Source: an uncultured Desulfomonile sp. (lineage in GTDB: Bacteria; Desulfobacterota; Desulfomonilia; Desulfomonilales; Desulfomonilaceae). From it: a DNA stretch of 64,000 nucleotides. A model generated the notes under the pieces. It saw only the letters and a list, made by a program, of their open reading frames with translations. It searched no databases and was not told the DNA's origin. The stretch's first letter is position 1. Each line of letters begins with the position of its first letter. This document shows positions 8,260 to 19,826 of this stretch, piece after piece. Made by a program: the position numbers and the translations under genes. The DNA lies in NCBI GenBank assembly GCA_903952205.1, contig CAJBEZ010000046.1:1-64000 (forward strand), read 5' to 3'.

Positions 8260-8742
8260 ATGGTCAAAATAGTTATTAGGGAAATTTTGGTATTTGTTCT
8301 CTCAATCGCCATATTTCCCGCGACTCTTATCTTGTTGATTTTACGTGGAGATCTGGATCGTTACGGACTGATGATGATTTCCCGTGAATTGCTTACTGCG
8401 GGGTCGTCGTTTCTTGAGTCGATATTGTTGATAGTGTCCAGATTGCTTGCTCCATACGCTTTGATACAGGCGCTCAGGGCTTATCAATGGTCTAGAGAGG
8501 GAGCAGAGCCCAGAAGATGGGCCTACCTTTACTATGCCTTATTGTCAGGCCTGGTTGGGGTGTGGTTTGGCGGAAAGTCGATGGACCTGTTGTACTTCAT
8601 GTTTCAACTGGGGGACATTCCGGGGGAACTCGCACAGTTCTTGAGGCTGGAATATGGGCATCTGTTGGTGGGACTGGCGGGGCTCTATGTCTCCATCCGA
8701 TGCCTGCGCATATCTATCAAATCAGCTCAAATCAAATCTTAG
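8260..8742 (+). CDS. Small integral membrane protein, unknown
   Basis: Not recognised. The 160-residue protein has four hydrophobic stretches: about 6-28 (ILVFVLSIAIFPATLILLIL), 48-70 (SSFLESILLIVSRLLAPYAL), 90-112 (YYALLSGLVGVWFGG) and 133-150 (HLLVGLAGLYVSI). It has short basic loops (RGDLDR, REGAEPRRW) and a basic C-terminus, so it is most likely an inner-membrane protein. There is no ribosome binding site; a TATAAT six bases upstream of the ATG suggests a leaderless message. The last four bases overlap the 3' end of the convergent receiver-LpxC gene. No enzyme motif was seen. Confidence 0.65.
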   Translation: MVKIVIREILVFVLSIAIFPATLILLILRGDLDRYGLMMISRELLTAGSSFLESILLIVSRLLAPYALIQALRAYQWSREGAEPRRWAYLYYALLSGLVGVWFGGKSMDLLYFMFQLGDIPGELAQFLRLEYGHLLVGLAGLYVSIRCLRISIKSAQIKS

Positions 8743-10853
8743 AGTATGTTGAGTTTCTCGTTTATGAGACGTAGCATTGCGATGTTTTCAGCGTGTCCGG
8801 TCTGCCTCGCAATGATCTTTCCCACTATAGGCCGTCCCAGAAGGTAAAAGTCACCTAAAATGTCGAGAATTTTGTGCCTTACAAATTCATCCTCGAAACG
8901 CAATGGCGGATTGACGACCTTGTCCTCGTCCACCAGGACTACGTTGGACAGCTTTCCTCCACCAGCCAGCCCCATCTCATCCATCATTCTCATATCTTTG
9001 ACAAAACCAAAAGTTCTAGCCGGCGCTATCTCAGACTTGAAATGGGCAATTTCAGACAACCTGAACGACATGCTCATCTTGCCGATGGGTTGAGGATAAT
9101 CCATCTGGTATTCGATTTCGAGCACTTCTGATGGCTCGATCCTCATAAACTTGAGGCTTCCTTCCGGTAACGGAATTTCCAAAGGTTGATCTATGACAAT
9201 TGTCTCGACAATCTCATCCTGAGTTATGATTTCAGCGCTTTCAACCAGGTTACAGAATTCCAGCGCGGAACCATCCATAATTGGGACTTCACCTGATATC
9301 TTAACCAGAAGATTCGTCAGGCCATATACGTGGAAAACGGCCATCAGATGTTCTATGGTTCTTGCGAGCGCTCCGTTTCCTCGAAGACTGGTGCAAAAGT
9401 CAGTGGATTCAACGTGACTCAACAAAGCTGGAACTGTCCCGCCGGATGTTATATGTCCGAAGTTTATCCCTGAAGAAGGCGGGAGTGGAGTAATAGTAAG
9501 CCCAGTCTTTTGGCCGGAATGAAGTCCCAGTCCGTAAATTACCACCTTACCGCGAAGGGTCCGCTGGTGAATAGTCTTATTTCCAGAGTTGATATCCGAC
9601 CATGTCTTCCCATGTTGAGGTTGATTCAAGCGCGCAGAACTAGACACTGAAGATCTTTGTCCTCTGTCCGTTAAAGGAGACTGAATTTCGTTTTCTTTTC
9701 CAGGATGGCCTTCAAGAGTGGGCAGCAATAGTTCGTTTATAGTTAAGGTCTGGCCTGAGGCGTTCATCACTGAATGCTCAACCAATATTTTCAGTTCTTT
9801 TATGTTGCCCGGCCAAGAGTATTGATTCAATTTCAAAAGAGCGTCGTCTTCTATCCCCACTATCTCCTTGTCAAATTCTCGAGACGCTTCCGCCAGAAAA
9901 TGTCTGACCAGCAAAGGTATGTCTTCCGGACGTTCCCTTAGAGGTGGAGTTCTGATAATCCTGCGTCCAAGCATGCTGACAATATTGCTGGGAAACCCCT
10001 TGGCTACCATCTCATCCGGAGATTTCTTCGAAGTCGACACAAACCGAATTGATCTCCGAGTCGCTGAATTTCCATCTTGCGTGCCCGTAATTTCTCTGAG
10101 AATCGAGAGGAGTGTTGATTCAAGTTCTACAGCCAAACGATCTATTCCCACGAACAAAAGAGTTACATTGTTTTCCGGGCCTACTCTGGCCAGTTTTGGC
10201 GAATGATTCTCTCCGAGTTTCCCGATTATCGTATCCCTCATGCTTTCTTGTTTCAGTTCGTCACAAGATATTTTTATCAGTTTCTGCCTGTCTTGTCCGG
10301 ACAAGAAATGGGTCATCCTAGCCAGAAATTCTTTCCCCGCTCCCTTTTCCCCGTAAATCCAGACCGAGCCAGTTTCCTGAGCCGCATTCTCAAGTGATCG
10401 CCGTATATTGGACGCAAGTTGAGACGCTCCGATCAACGGTCCTGGGGCGCATGCTGAAAAGTCTATCGCTTCAGGCCTTACATTTCGCGACGAGATTGCC
10501 TTCTCGACTAGGTGGAGTGTATCTTCAAGATTCAAGGGTTTCTCGAGATAATCTTCAGCCCCAAGCTTTATCGCCTTTACGGCCGTCTCGATTGTCCCAT
10601 GACCACTCATCATTATAACGTGGCACTGAGGGGCGATACGCTTAATCGCCTTTAGGGTTTGCATGCCGTCGATGCCCGGTATCCATATGTCGAGGAAAAC
10701 TATGTCGGGTGAATCACTCTGAACAGCGTGTAAGGCCTCCTGTCCATCGTGAGCTTTCAGCACCTCATGACCCTCATCTCCCAGTATGGCGCCGAGCGAG
10801 GTCAGTATCTCCTCCTGGTCGTCCACTATCAGGACTCGAGCCTTTTCCATCAT
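8739..10853 (-). CDS. lpxC: Receiver / degenerate sigma-54-type AAA+ / LpxC fusion protein
   Basis: One 704-residue frame holds three modules. Residues 5-120 are a response-regulator receiver (acidic DD 11-12, phospho-acceptor D55, S83, K105). Residues about 140-385 resemble an NtrC-type AAA+ domain with Walker A GEKGAGKE (168-175) and the WPGNIKEL helix. However, the GAFTGA loop is missing, the Walker B segment reads TLLFVGID, and no Fis-type DNA-binding helix follows. Residues 427-704 are a full-length LpxC, the Zn deacetylase that commits UDP-acyl-GlcNAc to lipid A. All catalytic positions are present: E501/H502 (TIEHLMA), H660 and D664 (HKILDILGD), and H687 (TGHAEN). The start ATG has GGTGAG 8 bases upstream. 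The deacetylase is very likely active; control by phosphorylation of the receiver is inference. Confidence 0.93.
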   Translation of the reverse strand: MMEKARVLIVDDQEEILTSLGAILGDEGHEVLKAHDGQEALHAVQSDSPDIVFLDIWIPGIDGMQTLKAIKRIAPQCHVIMMSGHGTIETAVKAIKLGAEDYLEKPLNLEDTLHLVEKAISSRNVRPEAIDFSACAPGPLIGASQLASNIRRSLENAAQETGSVWIYGEKGAGKEFLARMTHFLSGQDRQKLIKISCDELKQESMRDTIIGKLGENHSPKLARVGPENNVTLLFVGIDRLAVELESTLLSILREITGTQDGNSATRRSIRFVSTSKKSPDEMVAKGFPSNIVSMLGRRIIRTPPLRERPEDIPLLVRHFLAEASREFDKEIVGIEDDALLKLNQYSWPGNIKELKILVEHSVMNASGQTLTINELLLPTLEGHPGKENEIQSPLTDRGQRSSVSSSARLNQPQHGKTWSDINSGNKTIHQRTLRGKVVIYGLGLHSGQKTGLTITPLPPSSGINFGHITSGGTVPALLSHVESTDFCTSLRGNGALARTIEHLMAVFHVYGLTNLLVKISGEVPIMDGSALEFCNLVESAEIITQDEIVETIVIDQPLEIPLPEGSLKFMRIEPSEVLEIEYQMDYPQPIGKMSMSFRLSEIAHFKSEIAPARTFGFVKDMRMMDEMGLAGGGKLSNVVLVDEDKVVNPPLRFEDEFVRHKILDILGDFYLLGRPIVGKIIARQTGHAENIAMLRLINEKLNIL

Positions 10854-11140: not shown

Positions 11141-11434
11141 TTAGTCTTTAATAACCCTTCCAGTCAATTCCTCTCGTAATGAACGAATTTTCATGTCGGT
11201 CTTGGAGGATGATTCAAACCCCTGACGATCCTTTGTGGACAGAGAGGCACTCAAGGGAATGTCCGCGCTCTGACTCTTTTGAGGGGCAATACCTGAACAG
11301 AACGGAGAATCGTCAAGTATATGAGAAACTTGTTGGTTGGCTATTATAGAACACGTCTGGTCTGATGCGAAGGTCAAGGTAGATAGGTTAAACAAAACAA
11401 ATAAGACAAGGCCTATAACAATGTAGGACTTCAT
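11141..11434 (-). CDS. Small exported protein, unknown
   Basis: Not recognised. This 97-residue protein has a clear signal peptide (MKSYIVIGLVLFVLFNLSTLTFA, cleavage likely after TFA). The short mature part is Ser/Lys/Asp-rich with two cysteines (QTCS, PFCSG) that could form a disulfide. GAGGAG lies 8 bases before the ATG. It follows the chemosensory operon in the same direction, separated by about 140 bases with two hairpins, so it may be transcribed on its own. A run of nine G (C on its own strand) lies just past the stop. Confidence 0.55.
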   Translation of the reverse strand: MKSYIVIGLVLFVLFNLSTLTFASDQTCSIIANQQVSHILDDSPFCSGIAPQKSQSADIPLSASLSTKDRQGFESSSKTDMKIRSLREELTGRVIKD

Positions 11435-11573: not shown

Positions 11574-14138
11574 TTATTGCTGGGAACTATTGGCGTGGCG
11601 TTCTTCTCTGATTCGGGCCAGAGCATCTGTCAACTCCTTGTTATTGATGGGCTTGGAAATGTAGTCGTCCATGCCCGCTTCGAGGCATCTTTCTCTGTCT
11701 CCTTTCATGGCGTGAGCTGTTAGAGCCACTATTGGCGTGCGACTTCCCGATTCCTTTTCTGCCGCGCGTATGAGCTGGGTCGCTTCGAAACCATCCATGA
11801 CGGGCATTTGAACGTCCATCAGTATCACGTCAAAATTGCCGGCCCGGAATTTGTCCAACGCCTCCTGTCCATTCGCAGCGATAACTACCTTGTGCCCGAG
11901 GTTGGTAAGCATGTACGTCGCCAATTTCTGATTAATCAAATTGTCTTCTGCGACGAGGATTTCCATTTTACCTGAAGTCGCCTTCGAATGCTCTGATTCG
12001 TGATTACTGCACGGTTTTGAATCATCGGCCGAATGTGGGTCCAAAGACTTGAGCAGTCCGTCAGTCAACTCATCAGGCCCTATTGGTTTGGAAATGAATC
12101 CGACAACGTTAAGTTTCTGAAAATTTCCCCCCTCAGAACTAAAGTCTTTGGGAACCAGGAATAGGATCTTGGAAAGAGGCGCAACATTCCAGTTCTTTAT
12201 CTCTCGAGCCAACTCAGTTCCTGTTTCTTCACGGAGCGACATGTCGATGAGAATAAAGTCAAAGGTTTCTCCATTTTGTTTTGCGGTAGAGAGAATTGAC
12301 ATGGCCCCTGTGCCGTCATTCGCAAGCTGGACGATCATTCCGGTTTTGGTGAGCGTCTGTTCCAAGAGCCTTCTATTCGTGGCGTTGTATTCGATGACCA
12401 AGGCTGAAAGACCTTTTAGCGGATTTGGATTAAGTGGTCGAGAAGACGAAGTTGTTGTTTCAGGCTCGAATCCCATAGTTACTGTAAAATAAAACACGCT
12501 TCCTTTATCGATTTGACTTTGGACCCAAATTTTTCCACCCATCATCTGACAAAGCTGCGAAGAAACCGCAAGTCCCAGTCCCGTACCACCAAATCTCCTT
12601 GTTGAAGAACTGTCCACCTGTTCGAATGCCTGGAATATGGTAGCCAACTTCTCTTCAGGGATTCCGACTCCTGTGTCCCGGACTTCAAAATATAGCTTAA
12701 GTTTGGAATCCAGCAATTGTTCCGCCTTGACTGATACCAAAACTTCTCCCTGTTCTGTGAACTTTATAGCGTTACCGAGAAGGTTTATTAAGACCTGTTT
12801 CAGACGTCCGGAATCTCCCACAATTCGATCTGGGGTGTCATCCTCTACTTCGTAAATCAATTCCAAACCCTTGGCCTGGGCCTGAACAGTCATGTTGGAG
12901 ACAACCGTGGAAACGGAATCTCTAAGATTAAATGGAGCTGCGAATAGGGACATCTTGCCGGCTTCAATCTTTGAAAAATCCAATATGTCGTTTATGATCC
13001 GGATTAAATCCTGAGAAGAGACCTTGATTGACTCTATATATTCCCTTTGCTGGTCACTCAAGGTGGTTTCCAGCGCAAGTCCCGCCATTCCCACGATGCC
13101 ATTCAATGGAGTCCTAATTTCATGGCTCATGTTGGCCAGGAATTGTCCCTTCGCCCTGTTGGCCTGTTCCGTTTGTTCCTTTGCCTTAACAAAATCGCTA
13201 ACATCAAGAACACTTAGAATAACGCCTTTATAAGTGTCATCTTCAAATATAGGCTGCACCTGCATGGAAAGGGCATGGTCCCGCAATTCCCGATCTATTG
13301 AAACACGCTCTTGTGACAACCCTCTTTTGAATTGAGATATTATGTCTCTTACGTGATCTAAATGACGCCCGCTTTTATGGACATTCCATATAGTTTTGCC
13401 CAAAACTTCCGATCGCTTTGTTCCGAATAGTTCAGCAAATCTGCTATTGATTTCTGTGATAACGTCGTTTTCATCCGCAAAGACAATCCCTGCGTCCAGG
13501 CATTCGATCAATGTGCGGAGTTTATTGGCCTCGGCTGAAACCATTTCATTGGCTCGAGTCAGTTCGCCGTTGCTTTGAACCAATTCATGATAATTCTGAA
13601 CTGCTGTTTCATAGGACGACAACAACAGGTCTACAATCTGTATACGGTCAGCCGCCAGGAAATGCTTTCTCCCTGCGAAAAAGATTTCGATTCCCATGCC
13701 GGCGCTAGATTTAGATCTTATTTCCCTGTTTACAATTATGTACTGAATTCTGGAAACCAGGAGTTTCTCCTGATAAGGTTTTGTAATAAAGTTGTCCGCT
13801 CCAACTTCCAGGCCTCTTATTATGTCTTCCGGGTCGGAGAGAGAGGTTAGAAGAATAACTGGAATGTCCTTAAGGTTTTCATCGTCCTTGATACGTTTGC
13901 AGAGTTCATATCCATCCATTTCGGGCATAATTACATCACTAATTATTATCGTAGGACGATTCCCCTTAAGGTATTGAAGCGCTGCCTTGCCATTATGAGA
14001 AACCGCTACTTCAAACCCTCTTGTTTCCAGAATGTGTTGCAGGCGAATAGCCTGTGTGGGGCTATCCTCAACAACAAGGATTTTCATGTTGCTGTTTTCG
14101 CCGAGGTTCAAAAATTCCTGAGAGTGTCCAGGCTTCAT
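11574..14138 (-). CDS. Hybrid histidine kinase (REC-PAS-HisKA-HATPase-REC-REC)
   Basis: This 854-residue cytosolic sensor kinase has the following order. Receiver 1 is at about 18-140 (SDVIMPEMDG, KPY). A PAS domain covers about 205-320 (CLDAGIVFADENDVITEI). HisKA carries the phospho-histidine in MSHEIRTPLNGIVG. HATPase follows (NLLGNAIKFTEQG, DTGVGIP, GGTGLGLAVS). Receiver 2 is at about 580-700 (phospho-Asp in ILIDMSL present, but the usual Thr is Val). Receiver 3 at about 728-845 is intact (AEDNLINQK, MDVQMPVMDG, ALTAH, KPI). There is no transmembrane segment and no Hpt. Its ATG overlaps the cheB stop (ATGA) and uses an AGGAG inside cheB, so translation is coupled. It sits where Wsp-type systems have their output regulator, so receiver 1 may be the target of the operon's CheA. 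Confidence 0.92.
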   Translation of the reverse strand: MKPGHSQEFLNLGENSNMKILVVEDSPTQAIRLQHILETRGFEVAVSHNGKAALQYLKGNRPTIIISDVIMPEMDGYELCKRIKDDENLKDIPVILLTSLSDPEDIIRGLEVGADNFITKPYQEKLLVSRIQYIIVNREIRSKSSAGMGIEIFFAGRKHFLAADRIQIVDLLLSSYETAVQNYHELVQSNGELTRANEMVSAEANKLRTLIECLDAGIVFADENDVITEINSRFAELFGTKRSEVLGKTIWNVHKSGRHLDHVRDIISQFKRGLSQERVSIDRELRDHALSMQVQPIFEDDTYKGVILSVLDVSDFVKAKEQTEQANRAKGQFLANMSHEIRTPLNGIVGMAGLALETTLSDQQREYIESIKVSSQDLIRIINDILDFSKIEAGKMSLFAAPFNLRDSVSTVVSNMTVQAQAKGLELIYEVEDDTPDRIVGDSGRLKQVLINLLGNAIKFTEQGEVLVSVKAEQLLDSKLKLYFEVRDTGVGIPEEKLATIFQAFEQVDSSSTRRFGGTGLGLAVSSQLCQMMGGKIWVQSQIDKGSVFYFTVTMGFEPETTTSSSRPLNPNPLKGLSALVIEYNATNRRLLEQTLTKTGMIVQLANDGTGAMSILSTAKQNGETFDFILIDMSLREETGTELAREIKNWNVAPLSKILFLVPKDFSSEGGNFQKLNVVGFISKPIGPDELTDGLLKSLDPHSADDSKPCSNHESEHSKATSGKMEILVAEDNLINQKLATYMLTNLGHKVVIAANGQEALDKFRAGNFDVILMDVQMPVMDGFEATQLIRAAEKESGSRTPIVALTAHAMKGDRERCLEAGMDDYISKPINNKELTDALARIREERHANSSQQ

Positions 14139-15190
14139 TTGTTCGCTCCTGCGCCTATTAGTCTCATGAGCAAACCTACAATTCTGTCCGGAGCGGCAAT
14201 GTGGGTGGCTCCACCAATTTTAATGGCCTCTCCAGGCATACCGTGTATGACTGATGTTTCCTTATCTTGAGCTATGGTAATTGCGCCTTTGTCTTTGAGC
14301 GTCCGGAGTTCGTTGGCTCCGTCTTTGCCCATACCAGTAAGCAGAATCCCTACAGCTTTTTTCCCGAAAATCTCGGCGATAGACCTGAAAAGATAAGAAA
14401 CTGAGGGCTTCAAACCATTCTCAGGTGGATCATCGGTTAGGATTATATGACTGGAAAGATCAACTTTCATCTGAAAGCCGTCTGGAGCCACGTAAACAGT
14501 TCCGGCCTCCAAAATCTCTCTATTCTTTGCAACCCTGACTTTCAGGGCTGTTGATCGGTCAAGCCATTCTACAAGACCCGCTGTAAAATTTCTAGCAATG
14601 TGCTGAACAATTGCGATAGGGGCTGAGAAATTTTCAGGCAATGTCTCAAGCAATTCCTTGATAACTGGAGGCCCGCCGGTGGAAGCGCCTATCGCTACAA
14701 TCTCATACCGTGGTGCGGACAATCTACTTTCTGTCCTGTCGGCTGAGACTTCGGTAACCGCAACCTTTCGTTTTGGCCATCGACGCACCACCTTTACCTG
14801 TGACATTAGTCTCACAGTGTCAACGATATTTTTCGAGTTATTTCTATAATTTTCTTCAGTTGAATATCGCGGTTTTTCGACAGCAGCGACTGCTCCCGCC
14901 TCCATCGCCTGCCAGGCCTTGTTGAGATCGCTAGGGTCCCAGCTAGCCGTCACAATTACTATGGGAACCGGATTTTTCTGCATGATTTGACGAGTGGCGT
15001 CGAAGCCATTGAGGCGCGGCATGTTAATGTCCATGGTTATGACATCGGGTTTGTTTCGCTCCACAAATTCAACCGCTTCCTGGCCATCCTTTGCTTCCCC
15101 GATGACAACCATTTCGTTCTCTAAAGTCAGTATGTGCTTGAGAAGGTCCCTCACGACAGGGGAATCATCCACTACAAGGACTTTGATCAT
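14135..15190 (-). CDS. cheB: Chemoreceptor glutamate methylesterase
   Basis: CheB removes methyl groups from the chemoreceptor when its receiver is phosphorylated by CheA. The receiver (VLVVDDSP, MDINMPRLNG) occupies about residues 1-120. The esterase covers about 160-350 with the triad Ser in GASTGGP, His in IVQHIA and Asp in GMGKDGANEL. I placed the start at ATG 15190, giving MIKVLVVDDSPVV; a TTG 20 codons earlier would overlap cheA and gives a non-homologous N-terminus. The gap to cheA is 16 bases, and the stop overlaps the hybrid kinase start by four. It corresponds to WspF in content. Confidence 0.95.
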   Translation of the reverse strand: MIKVLVVDDSPVVRDLLKHILTLENEMVVIGEAKDGQEAVEFVERNKPDVITMDINMPRLNGFDATRQIMQKNPVPIVIVTASWDPSDLNKAWQAMEAGAVAAVEKPRYSTEENYRNNSKNIVDTVRLMSQVKVVRRWPKRKVAVTEVSADRTESRLSAPRYEIVAIGASTGGPPVIKELLETLPENFSAPIAIVQHIARNFTAGLVEWLDRSTALKVRVAKNREILEAGTVYVAPDGFQMKVDLSSHIILTDDPPENGLKPSVSYLFRSIAEIFGKKAVGILLTGMGKDGANELRTLKDKGAITIAQDKETSVIHGMPGEAIKIGGATHIAAPDRIVGLLMRLIGAGANK

Positions 15191-15206
15191 GGTAGTGACC
15201 TTGAAC

Positions 15207-17696
15207 CTACAAGAGACGTTTGACCACGGAAAGGAGATTGTTTTGTTCAAATCCGCTTTTCACTATATACGCGTTTGCTCCTACATCAATACCACGTTCC
15301 CGATCTTCCCGGGATTCAAGAGATGTCACTATTACCACCGGCAGACTCTTGAGATTTTCCTGACTTCGAATTTTTGCAGTCAGCTCAAATCCGTCCATGC
15401 GAGGCATTTCCACGTCTGAAACCACAAGGTCGAAATTCGCGGTTTTGAGTGTAGACCATGCGTCAGCGCCGTCCACTGCTGTTTGAACTTCGTAACCTGC
15501 AGATTCTAGAATATTCTTGAGCAACATTCTAGAAGTGATGGAGTCTTCTACCACTAGAATTGATTTAGTCTTCTCTTCATCTTCCGGTCTTTGGGTATGA
15601 GCAACTAGCCCAACACCAGCAATTCTCATAGCCGAAAGTATCAAGTCTGATACATTTAGGATAAGCGCTACTTGACCTGAGCCGAGAACTGTAGCGGCCG
15701 AAACGTTACGAACCCTTGACAGTTGACGTCCGAGACTTTTTACGAGGACCTCCTGCTCATTAAGTATGGCATTTACACTGAAAGCGATTTTTTGATCTGA
15801 GGCTCCCAATATCAATACGGTAACGAACTCAGATGCTTGACCCAGTTTGGGTTCACTTTTAATTTCCATTACGTCGGCCAATCTCACCAATGGTAACACA
15901 CGACCCTTCATTGTGATTGTGTCCCTGTTTTCAACTGTGCCGATCGAATCTCTTCTAACGCGACTTACTCGAATTACATTTGAAGTGGGGACAATGAACA
16001 GCTCTGTCCCAACTTGCACCAGGGTTCCCCGGAAAGTAGCCAAAGTTACGGGTAGTTGAATATGAAAGACGGTTCCGATCCCCAATCTTGATTCTACCGT
16101 TACCGTTCCGCCAAGCTTTTCTACCTTCTCTCTGACGATAGCCAGACCTAAACCTCGGCCAGACAAGTCGGTAATGATCGGACTCGTTGATATCTCTGAT
16201 TTGAAAATAAGCGCCGCGGTGTCTTCGGGGTTGAGGCCTCTCAATTCCTGTTCGGTTATAAGATTCTTTCTAAGGGCAGCCTGTTTGACTTTCTCGACAT
16301 CAATTCCTGCGCCGTCATCGGCAACCAATATTTCAACTTTTTTCGTGCCGAGCTGGGCAATAGATATGGCTAGGGATCCTTCCTCCGTCTTTCCCCTTCG
16401 AGTTCGATCAGTCGGCCTTTCTAGTCCATGGTCAATTGAGTTCCTTGCTAGATGAATCAAGGGATCTTTCATTTCCTCAAGAATTCTTCGGTCTATTTCT
16501 GTGTCTCCCCCTTCAATGGTGAGCTTGATCTTTTTGCCCTGGTCTCGGGCCAAGTCTCTGACAAGCCTGGGTAAAATCTCTAACAACGTGGATGAAGGCA
16601 ACATCAGTACGCTTTTCATATCATCCAGAAGATCATTCACCATCGAGGCGGCCTGTCGAGAATCGTTCTCTGCCATTGAGTTGATGGTCTTCAGCTTTGA
16701 TTCTAGTCCTTTTATGGTGTCCTCGTTTGCCTCGAGGAAATCAATCATCTTCAACAGGTAAGATCTGGATGTTCCCCAAGCATCCCTGGCTTCAAGGGTT
16801 TCTACAAAATTCCTCAGAATCCTTATTTCAGGATATATTTTTAGCCATTGTTTCTTTTGTGAATCCAGGCTTGACTTGAGGTTCCTTAAGTCAGAAGCCC
16901 TTTGATTCGCTGCCATCTTTATAGCCACCATCTCCTCAACTTGATAAAGGAGTGAATCCAATTTGGATGTCTTAATTCGAATGGTTTCTGATTGGGCTGT
17001 CCTTTTCGTCCCGCTGGGGGGAGCGGGAACGAATGAATGAGGGGTGAAATTAGGTTGAGATTGGGAGGCTAAAGTTCCTTTAATAGAAGCTTGTGGAGTC
17101 AGGACGACAATTTCGGGTTCCTTTCTTTGAGAAACTTCTTTCTCAGCGTCAAAAGTCTTATTTTCAGGATCTGAAATCTCAGTTTTCGATTTGTTGTCTC
17201 TGACCTCAGTTCCATTAATCACGGTGGGATGGTTCGGATTGGTCACAACATCGCTTGAGGGAAAGTCTTTTTTGACGTCCTCAAGTTCATTGTGAGATTC
17301 AGCCGAGTTTTCAATTATTTGGGACAGACGATGGAGTAGTTCGACTATTGGTATAGCCTCTTCAGATGTCACCAGTTTGGACACTCCTTCGATAGAGTCC
17401 ATCAAAACATCCAGGATCCAAGATTCCGCCTGTATTTCATCTTTTTTCAACATAGAGAAAACAGTCTCCATTGCCTGACAGACTCTTTCAACATCTCTCA
17501 TGCCAACTGCTCGGGCGGCCCCTTTTAGGCTATGCGCCTCTCGATATATCGTTTCCAGAATTTGAGCCTTATCCTGCGGACTGGGGTTCTTGTCTAGGTT
17601 AAGGAGACCTGAAGAAATAGTCTGTACGTGCTCATCAGCCTCAATCCTGAAGGTGTTTTTCAATCTCTTGAGGAATTCTTCTTCCCTGTTGTCCAT
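15207..17696 (-). CDS. cheA: Chemotaxis-type histidine kinase with C-terminal receiver
   Basis: This 829-residue CheA/WspE-type kinase phosphorylates the pathway regulators. Hpt is N-terminal with phospho-histidine H55 (REAHSLKGAARAVG). A Ser/Thr/Glu-rich linker spans about 125-235. A dimerisation/P2-like helical part is at about 240-370, followed by HATPase (HLARNSIDHGLERP, DDGAGIDV, GRGLGLAIV). A CheW-like domain follows (about 550-690), and a complete receiver ends the protein (VVEDSITSR, SDVEMPRMDGF, TSLESREDR, KSG). A fused receiver is typical of alternative-function and Myxococcus-type pathways rather than flagellar E. coli CheA. ATG with GAGGA upstream; 11 bases after the mcp stop. Confidence 0.95.
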   Translation of the reverse strand: MDNREEEFLKRLKNTFRIEADEHVQTISSGLLNLDKNPSPQDKAQILETIYREAHSLKGAARAVGMRDVERVCQAMETVFSMLKKDEIQAESWILDVLMDSIEGVSKLVTSEEAIPIVELLHRLSQIIENSAESHNELEDVKKDFPSSDVVTNPNHPTVINGTEVRDNKSKTEISDPENKTFDAEKEVSQRKEPEIVVLTPQASIKGTLASQSQPNFTPHSFVPAPPSGTKRTAQSETIRIKTSKLDSLLYQVEEMVAIKMAANQRASDLRNLKSSLDSQKKQWLKIYPEIRILRNFVETLEARDAWGTSRSYLLKMIDFLEANEDTIKGLESKLKTINSMAENDSRQAASMVNDLLDDMKSVLMLPSSTLLEILPRLVRDLARDQGKKIKLTIEGGDTEIDRRILEEMKDPLIHLARNSIDHGLERPTDRTRRGKTEEGSLAISIAQLGTKKVEILVADDGAGIDVEKVKQAALRKNLITEQELRGLNPEDTAALIFKSEISTSPIITDLSGRGLGLAIVREKVEKLGGTVTVESRLGIGTVFHIQLPVTLATFRGTLVQVGTELFIVPTSNVIRVSRVRRDSIGTVENRDTITMKGRVLPLVRLADVMEIKSEPKLGQASEFVTVLILGASDQKIAFSVNAILNEQEVLVKSLGRQLSRVRNVSAATVLGSGQVALILNVSDLILSAMRIAGVGLVAHTQRPEDEEKTKSILVVEDSITSRMLLKNILESAGYEVQTAVDGADAWSTLKTANFDLVVSDVEMPRMDGFELTAKIRSQENLKSLPVVIVTSLESREDRERGIDVGANAYIVKSGFEQNNLLSVVKRLL

Positions 17697-17707
17697 TTCA
17701 ATCGTCC

Positions 17708-19774
17708 TCAGACCTTGAATCTGTTTACAAAGTCTTTAAGTCTTTGACCAAGTTGTTCAAGATTCCTCGCCGCTGTCTCCAGTTCCCTGGTTCCTTCAAC
17801 GCTTTGCCTCATGGCTTGTTCAATACTGTCCATCGCAGTCGAAACCTGTTCAACTCCTATGGATTGCTGGTCACTCGAAGCTGAAACGATGGTCAAAGCC
17901 TCGGTGGCTTCTTGGACACTCCTTGTGACTTCATCAATCGATTCACCAGCCTCCTGGGACTGTCTTGAACCGGCTTCTACGGCTTTGTTTCCCTGTTCTG
18001 TGGCCATAACCACTGCGCTTATTGAATTACGGATGTCCTCCAAAATCATCCTTACCTGATCTGTGGCTTGTCTGGATTGGTCCGCGAGTGTTTTGATTTC
18101 TTGGGCGACTACAGAGAATCCTTTGCCCTGCTCACCGGCTCTTGCCGCCTCTATTGAGGCGTTGACAGCAAGCAGCTTTGATTGCTCCGCCAAATCTTTT
18201 ACAGCCGCTATAATTTCTTCTATGGAAACGCTTTGCTCACTCAAACGGACCACAGTCTCGCCTATGGATTCCATTTGAGTCCTTATCAGACTCATTCTTT
18301 TAACAGTTTCCTCTGTGGCCTTTTTCCCTCCTTGGGCTACTTGGAAAGTAGTTTGTGACCTGTCTGATACGGATTTGGCTTTTTCACTCGACAGGTTGAC
18401 GGTCTGTTTGAGTTCTTCAACAGTGGTGGTTGTCTCGCTGACAGCTGAGGAAGTCTCGGCAGCGCTTGCGGCCAGTTCAGATGTTGTGGTGGAAATCTGC
18501 GTGGACGATGACATCAAGATGTTTACGCCTTCGAGAATTTCCTTGGTCTGTTGCCTGAGGTTTTCCACCATTAAGTGAAATGATCTTGTAAGTTGCCCTA
18601 TCTCGTCTCGTCGTTTTTCCAGAGTTACGTCTATGGTCAAATCTCCTTGACTAATCTTGGAGGCTTGATCCGACATTCTCCTGATGGGCTTTGAAACTCC
18701 GCGTGCCGCTATGAATGCTACGATGGACACAACAACAGCAATGATTAATCCGATGACAAATATGCGCCAAACTATATCCATTGCAAGAGCCAGCGATTCT
18801 TTTTCATCGATGTCTGAAATGATTGCCCAGTCAAAATCTGCGCTGAGATTTTCGTCCTTGTTAATGGCCGCTGGAAGATAATATATCAGCGAGATTTCCC
18901 CTCTAAGGTCCAACCCTATCATTGATCCGGATTCGCCTTTAAGCGCCAATTGAACTGCTTTGGTTTCGTCCTTCTTTTTCATGAAAAAGGATGAAGATTC
19001 AAAACGGGTGTCAGAGCGCATTAGGAAGTCTTGACCCACCAGCCTGGTCTCTCCTGTCTCCCCCACTCCTGTGGTACTTTTCATAATGTCTAAAATATGA
19101 CCAGGCTTGATAGCCAAGGCCAGTATCGCGTTCACTCCGGCGTCAGAATCTAAACCTATAGGGGCCGCAGCGAACATTAAATACGCCGCTGACGAACCAA
19201 AAACTGAGAAATCAACCACGGTCGGTTTTCTGGTCCTGGAAACTCGTTCCCAAATTTTTGCAAGCCCTGATTCTCTGTAAGGTCCATTCCTTAAACTTGT
19301 TCCCAAATCGACTCGTCGATTCAGGCTGTAAATGATGACCCCACTCAATGCGTCAATAATGAATATGTCCTCAAGGTTGTTGGATTCTTTTCCAATTGCC
19401 TGCATAAACTTCTTGAATGTCTGATCGAGATCGTTATGGGCTTTCTTGTAAACATCAGTCGCTGTCTCTAATGTGGATCCGCCACCCGCTTTGGAGTTGG
19501 CCGAACCGTGAGCCTGGATCTGAGATGTGCTGGTTACAACTGGATCTAGTGTCGCCATAAATTTTGTATCCGTCATAGCATGATTGAGATAACCGAGAAT
19601 TTGTTCTTTTCGAAGGTCGGCCGCCTCGTGAAGCTTTTGAAATTCTAGTTTCTTGAGCGCTGACAATGCGGTCCAATAAGACAACACCCCAACTAGCGCT
19701 ATCGGTAATAGGGAAACGGCAAGAAAAAGCGCCATCATTTTAGCCAGCAGGCTTCTAGCGAAGAAGTTGATCAT
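17708..19774 (-). CDS. Methyl-accepting chemotaxis protein
   Basis: This membrane chemoreceptor has about 688 residues. ATG 19774 ([14 protein letters not shown]) follows GGGAGA at the right distance and places the first membrane helix ([21 protein letters not shown]) directly at the N-terminus. An earlier TTG/ATG frame start at 19810 is less likely. A periplasmic region of about 290 residues (double-Cache-like size) ends in the second helix, [25 protein letters not shown] follows ([21 protein letters not shown]). The signalling domain is a long coiled coil with the hairpin tip [20 protein letters not shown] and no C-terminal CheR-binding pentapeptide. As the only receptor in the operon it is the WspA counterpart. 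Its ligand cannot be told. Confidence 0.95.
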
Positions 19775-19826
19775 CTCGGTTTCTCCCAGATGTAACAAGG
19801 CGATAAACACCTATTGGGTTTTAATT

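Follow-up and report, generated by a model that had tools for sequence, protein, structure and literature searches.

Domain organization and setting of the Desulfomonile LpxC fusion

The window, a 64,000-nucleotide stretch of DNA from an uncultured Desulfomonile sp., contains an open reading frame of 704 codons, counted from an ATG, at positions 8739-10853 of the reverse strand. The 704-aa product combines a receiver domain (REC), a degenerate AAA+ module with its lid, a linker, and LpxC, the enzyme of the committed step in the synthesis of lipid A, which anchors the outer membrane. The receiver (residues 7-115, 10509..10835, reverse strand like all parts of the gene) matches Pfam Response_reg with 106 bits and has intact D11, D12, D55, S83 and K105. 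D55, encoded at 10689..10691, is the predicted phospho-acceptor. It is followed by an NtrC-type AAA+ core (residues 140-305, 9939..10436) with a 48-bit Sigma54_activat match in Pfam over residues 140-286, in which Walker A is present and the GAFTGA loop, the Walker B acids and the Arg finger are gone. An AAA+ lid (Pfam AAA_lid_14, 76 bits; residues 306-386, 9696..9938) leads into an unconserved linker (residues 387-427, 9573..9695; 13% mean identity) at the site of the HTH of NtrX; neither Pfam nor alignment revealed an HTH in this stretch, be it in the window protein or in other Desulfomonilaceae. The LpxC catalytic domain (residues 428-699, 8757..9572) retains E501, H502, H660, K661, D664, D668 and H687, matches Pfam PF03331 over residues 430-697 with 272.6 bits (cut-off 27), and scores 222.9 bits against TIGR00325, above the equivalog cut-off of 187.25. 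The original prediction, which had read an intact receiver with D55 and a full catalytic LpxC in one frame at this position and strand, is thus borne out by the reading frame, the profile matches and the catalytic residues. Its description of the front end as a response regulator holds for the receiver and is otherwise incomplete, having overlooked the degenerate NtrX-type sigma-54 AAA+ module.

The genome that includes the window is 99.99% complete and has one lpxC, the fusion; the second, stand-alone copy for which the original prediction had proposed a check was not found in it. LpxK and LpxB are encoded once each, indicating that the cell has a lipid A pathway in which the fusion is the only candidate for the committed step. 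From its place as the only LpxC beside LpxB and LpxK, we infer that the window protein is an active deacetylase.

A gene for a small exported protein of 97 aa (11141..11434, reverse strand) lies upstream of the fusion, possibly on the same transcript. This protein has no Pfam match, contains a conserved stretch C/Q-x-G-I/M-APQKSQ, and is kept upstream of the fused lpxC in several Desulfomonilaceae genera (the window and loci L039, L041, L042, L048, L050, L051 and L052). Beyond it, at 11574-19810 of the same strand, genes of a chemotaxis-like phosphorelay (an MCP, a CheA-CheW-REC hybrid, CheB and a three-receiver hybrid kinase) run toward the fused lpxC. On the other side, the end of a convergent open reading frame of 160 aa (8260-8742, forward strand) and the stop of the fused lpxC overlap by 4 bp, and most relatives have a convergent frame of 97-191 aa after lpxC.

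Distribution, conservation and predicted structure of the fusions

In all 17 Desulfomonilaceae genomes having an lpxC, which represent 11 genera, the gene is single and fused, with an open frame of 698-764 codons. Receiver, AAA+ and LpxC are intact throughout, and one of the fusions is cut off within the receiver by the end of its contig. The sister family f2 has a stand-alone LpxC of 272-324 codons. A survey of LpxC architectures across the phylum, also suggested by the original prediction, was made with a profile of the Desulfomonilaceae LpxC domains against 395 genomes of this one phylum, 362 of which gave a match, and it revealed the receiver fusion as ancient and widespread, a breadth that the original prediction had missed. 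Receiver-fused LpxC was found in approximately 90 of the 362 LpxC-bearing genomes and in 25 families, the genome figure being counted from the scores and open-frame lengths of a second LpxC clade. All members of this clade have long N-terminal extensions, which contain receivers in every case examined; at one locus (L115), a frameshift in a draft genome parts LpxC from its receiver.

Three architectures are present among the fusions. REC-AAA-LpxC with an HTH-like stretch ahead of LpxC occurs in families f3, f5, f35, f50, f75 and f107, and REC-AAA-LpxC without an HTH in the Desulfomonilaceae. Most fusion families have no AAA+ module at all, their proteins being reduced to REC-LpxC (f9, f11, f12, f20, f26, f29, f34, f45, f53, f54, f55, f59, f73, f78, f81, f87, f88 and f103). 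In a tree of 125 LpxC sequences, all fusions fall into a single clade (SH-aLRT 100) that includes no stand-alone LpxC, suggesting that the receiver was gained once and never lost in the sampled genomes. Sequence comparison indicates that the AAA+ and HTH parts were eroded repeatedly while the receiver stayed.

Two genomes of one genus (G242 and G284, loci L140 and L141) carry a stand-alone lpxC beside ntrY and, in addition, a fast-evolving REC-LpxC; the second lpxC copy may have another substrate or may have been acquired. In another genome (G418, loci L123 and L124), about 130 kb separate two REC-LpxC genes, and NtrY was not detected.

Among the 17 Desulfomonilaceae fusions, the receiver is the best conserved part (85.5% mean pairwise identity), above LpxC (76.8%), the lid (62%), the AAA core (43%) and the linkers (13-22%). 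D55, S83 and K105 are invariant in this family, D11 and D12 are found wherever the receiver is complete, and the seven LpxC residues from E501 to H687 are kept. The same holds for 71 distinct fusions from the wider set: D55, K105 and a Ser or Thr at position 83 were found in 71/71, the receiver acidic pair in all 70 readable sequences, and the LpxC residues Glu, His, His, Lys, Asp, Asp and His in 71/71.

For structural comparison, the minimal REC-LpxC protein L088 (439 aa) was modelled from 77 sequences with a pLDDT of 89 and a pTM of 0.82. The model contains a receiver and an LpxC domain joined by a disordered linker (126-151) and superimposes on Aquifex LpxC with a target-normalised TM score of 0.95. 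Its pTM exceeds the expectation for random placement of the two domains, which hints at a defined receiver-LpxC packing, and we give this little weight. The AlphaFold prediction for the window protein with 17 relatives was poor (pLDDT 59, LpxC part included) and was left unused.

Relation of the front end to NtrX and of its genes to NtrY

The AAA+ module of the fusions has retained its Walker A motif (31/31 AAA-bearing fusions), whereas the GAFTGA loop and the Arg finger, each present in 9/9 intact NtrX proteins, are found in none of the 31, and the Walker B acids are gone in essentially all (LLFVGIDRL at this site in the window protein). With these three elements lost, the AAA+ module of the window protein can hardly activate sigma-54 promoters. 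Among regulator models, NtrX nevertheless fitted the front end best in every fusion tested. The window protein reached 241.6 bits, below the equivalog cut-off of 600, and an intact f2 NtrX likewise stayed under it with 512.5 bits. Some other families have an HTH-like remnant ahead of LpxC; here the NtrX model aligned over positions 3-450 of 452 (L118) or up to position 448 (L117) and stopped directly before LpxC. This match nearly to the last residue suggests that the fusion began as a whole NtrX. A receiver-only tree was poorly resolved, having too few columns. In a REC-AAA tree the fusions form one clade, with one paralogue group and long branches, and NtrX descent is not provable from it. 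Since the trees are weak, the NtrX origin of the receiver rests on the regulator models, synteny and complementarity, which together indicate that it comes from NtrX.

Synteny connects the fusion to the kinase NtrY. At 11 fusion loci, the gene directly upstream encodes an NtrY-type kinase of 730-810 aa with NtrY_N, HAMP, PAS, HisKA and HATPase domains, the gap between the two genes ranging from -134 to +78 bp (275 bp in the frameshifted L115). By comparison of coordinates, NtrY adjoins the fusion upstream in 21 of 48 fusion genomes, representing 12 families. In sister family f2, the stand-alone gene is part of an lpxC-ntrY-ntrX operon, and by coordinates ntrY adjoins lpxC in approximately 20 of another 32 genomes with a stand-alone LpxC. 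The order lpxC-ntrY-ntrX was seen outside the fusion clade at L165, L166, L167, L168, L169, L171, L172 and L179. At L117 and L125, both of them fusion loci, ntrY is preceded by a DUF4390 gene, and at L178 and L180 a gene of similar size sits between lpxC and ntrY.

Class-wide, NtrY is single-copy and scores over 900 bits where complete, the next kinase reaching about 214 bits or less. In the Desulfomonilaceae its gene is unlinked to the fusion. The NtrY of the window's genome is an orphan on another contig (G000:C60:124035-126227) with no NtrX beside it. A Zincin_1-type metallopeptidase gene on that contig (L163:6659-7030, forward strand) ends at the start base of the orphan ntrY, and an open reading frame of similar size precedes ntrY at L175. 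In two draft genomes of the family (G001 and G009), no NtrY was found.

The distribution of NtrX is complementary to that of the fusion. The f2 orthologues score 812-890 bits where complete, whereas none of the 17 Desulfomonilaceae genomes gave a match above 523 bits, the level of paralogues. In 80 further genomes, with an orthologue threshold of 638 bits or more, NtrX was present in 31/32 with a stand-alone LpxC and in 2/48 with a fusion, whereas NtrY was present in 31/32 and 46/48, respectively; the genomes are related, so these counts are not independent events, and the pattern spans many families. The two fusion genomes with NtrX are G316 and G242, the latter having a stand-alone lpxC as well; a fragment at a contig end in G284 is possibly NtrX. 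The two in which NtrY was not found are G400 and G418. This complementarity indicates that the fusion has replaced NtrX while NtrY remains.

Predicted phosphorelay control of lipid A synthesis

Direct phosphorelay control of LpxC is strongly favoured by the residue conservation in 71/71 fusions, the single origin without reversal, the loss of NtrX, the retention of NtrY and the operon linkage. We consider it likely that NtrY phosphorylates the NtrX-derived receiver and thereby directly switches the attached LpxC, so that LpxC would serve a two-component system as its output domain. LpxC would have been joined in frame to an ancestral NtrX, after which the HTH, the sigma-54 contact loop and the ATPase machinery, in most families the whole AAA+ module, would have decayed, with the receiver and the deacetylase being kept. 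The membrane histidine kinase NtrY would sense the state of the cell and phosphorylate D55, and the resulting change in receiver shape or self-association would act on the attached LpxC through its activity, self-association or stability, so that neither transcription nor proteolysis would be needed to set lipid A flux. Both the phosphotransfer from NtrY and its effect on LpxC we infer from the comparative data; by analogy with alphaproteobacterial NtrYX, we lean slightly toward phosphorylation lowering LpxC. The wider reading appears reasonably probable to us, namely that NtrX was absorbed once into LpxC in the ancestry of many families and discarded its DNA-binding and ATPase parts, that NtrY now sets lipid A flux post-translationally, and that the surviving lineages show the intermediates (full NtrX-LpxC, AAA-only and receiver-only).

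Several other explanations were considered. Receivers dimerise and can persist as scaffolds; together with the unlinked kinase gene of the Desulfomonilaceae, this would fit a receiver that no longer signals and stabilises or localises LpxC as a structural or dimerisation module. However, a pure scaffold needs neither a phosphorylation pocket nor a partner kinase, and the retention of the acidic pair, D55, S/T83 and K105 over a deep tree (71/71 fusions), in a receiver better conserved than LpxC, makes this unlikely. It is quite improbable that, in the genus of the window, the neighbouring chemotaxis-like phosphorelay phosphorylates the receiver instead of NtrY. In the window and at five further loci of this genus, the hybrid kinase gene is indeed found upstream of the fusion and on its strand, at a distance of approximately 600-680 bp with the small open reading frame in between, but it does not neighbour the fusion in those other Desulfomonilaceae genera for which enough flank is available (L037, L038, L043, L046, L047 and L048), and NtrY is kept across the family despite the loss of NtrX and adjoins the fusion in 12 other families. 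As a general partner, the adjacent hybrid kinase was rejected, since it stands beside the fusion only in the window's genus.

The fusion could also be a transcription regulator still, with LpxC as a passenger that sequesters the regulator or feeds back on it, as the matches of L118 and L117 to positions 450 and 448 of the NtrX model, over an HTH-like stretch, and the Walker A motif in all AAA-bearing fusions might suggest. The complete loss of GAFTGA and the Arg finger from these proteins, the nearly complete loss of the Walker B acids, the Desulfomonilaceae without an HTH and the lack of an AAA+ module in most families leave this a very remote prospect. An assembly or sequencing artefact joining two genes, which the original prediction had named as a possible objection, is ruled out for practical purposes, since 17 genomes of the family and members of 24 other families have this open frame in common, nearly closed genomes included (such as G010, with 6.5 Mb in 2 contigs). 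Control of LpxC through the NtrX-derived receiver remains the favoured reading.

Receivers that control an attached enzyme are known from CheB, GGDEF, EAL and other response regulators. The enzymatic outputs of these regulators mostly serve signalling, whereas the output here would be an essential biosynthetic enzyme present in the cell as its only copy. The LpxC-FabZ protein of Bacteroidota (PRK13188) is also a multidomain LpxC, but it is joined to a dehydratase at its C-terminus instead of a signalling domain; against this model the window protein reaches 182 bits (cut-off 465). In E. coli, LpxC is controlled by FtsH/LapB proteolysis, which acts on the same committed step as the control proposed here and, like it, after enzyme synthesis. 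The fusions are without the C-terminal tail of most stand-alone LpxC proteins, with medians of 17 and 16 residues beyond the catalytic-site His compared to 45 in the stand-alone LpxC scored. The f2 enzymes are tail-less as well, so the loss of the tail is no proof that phosphorelay control has replaced proteolysis. No LapB above its cut-off was found in the window's genome.

Experimental precedent for two-component control of lpxC, acting by transcription, comes from studies of NtrYX and DVU2934. Deletion of ntrYX in the alphaproteobacterium Rhodobacter sphaeroides raised lpxC mRNA 8.8-fold and approximately doubled LPS, with no NtrX binding at lpxC (PMC7240162), and NtrYX of Caulobacter crescentus also lowers lpxC transcription (reviewed in PMC12444477). 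These systems resemble the fusion system in the kinase-regulator pair and the target enzyme (PMC7240162, PMC12444477). However, they affect the amount of lpxC transcript, probably indirectly, whereas the receiver here is covalently joined to LpxC in a protein that has lost the DNA-binding apparatus. In Desulfovibrio vulgaris, which belongs to the same broad group of organisms, only one target has been mapped for the DNA-binding response regulator DVU2934, and this is lpxC; in Syntrophobacter fumaroxidans, the operon of the orthologous regulator directly follows lpxC (PMC3333781). Unlike the window fusion, DVU2934 exerts transcriptional control over a stand-alone lpxC. In the published work, NtrYX and other response regulators are linked to lpxC through transcription.

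The open-access literature, to which our search was confined with subscription papers and preprints outside its scope, yielded no report of an LpxC-receiver fusion, and a 2025 review of lipid A regulation makes no mention of a receiver or response-regulator fusion. Domain databases may list the architecture without comment. Receivers controlling enzymes are already known; LpxC as an output domain and the replacement of NtrX by the fusion were found nowhere in the open-access literature and appear to be new. To our knowledge, little is established about how bacteria other than enterobacteria set the activity of LpxC, the known control being by proteolysis, protein partners or transcription. In the fusions, the enzyme itself contains the predicted control element, which is therefore amenable to purification and study in vitro. 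The family also represents a natural series of intermediates from a transcription factor to the regulatory domain of an enzyme, and bears on the repeated, so far indirect, link of NtrYX to the cell envelope. If the proposed control is true, a two-component system would have given up transcription as its output and would now control an essential biosynthetic enzyme by direct allostery.
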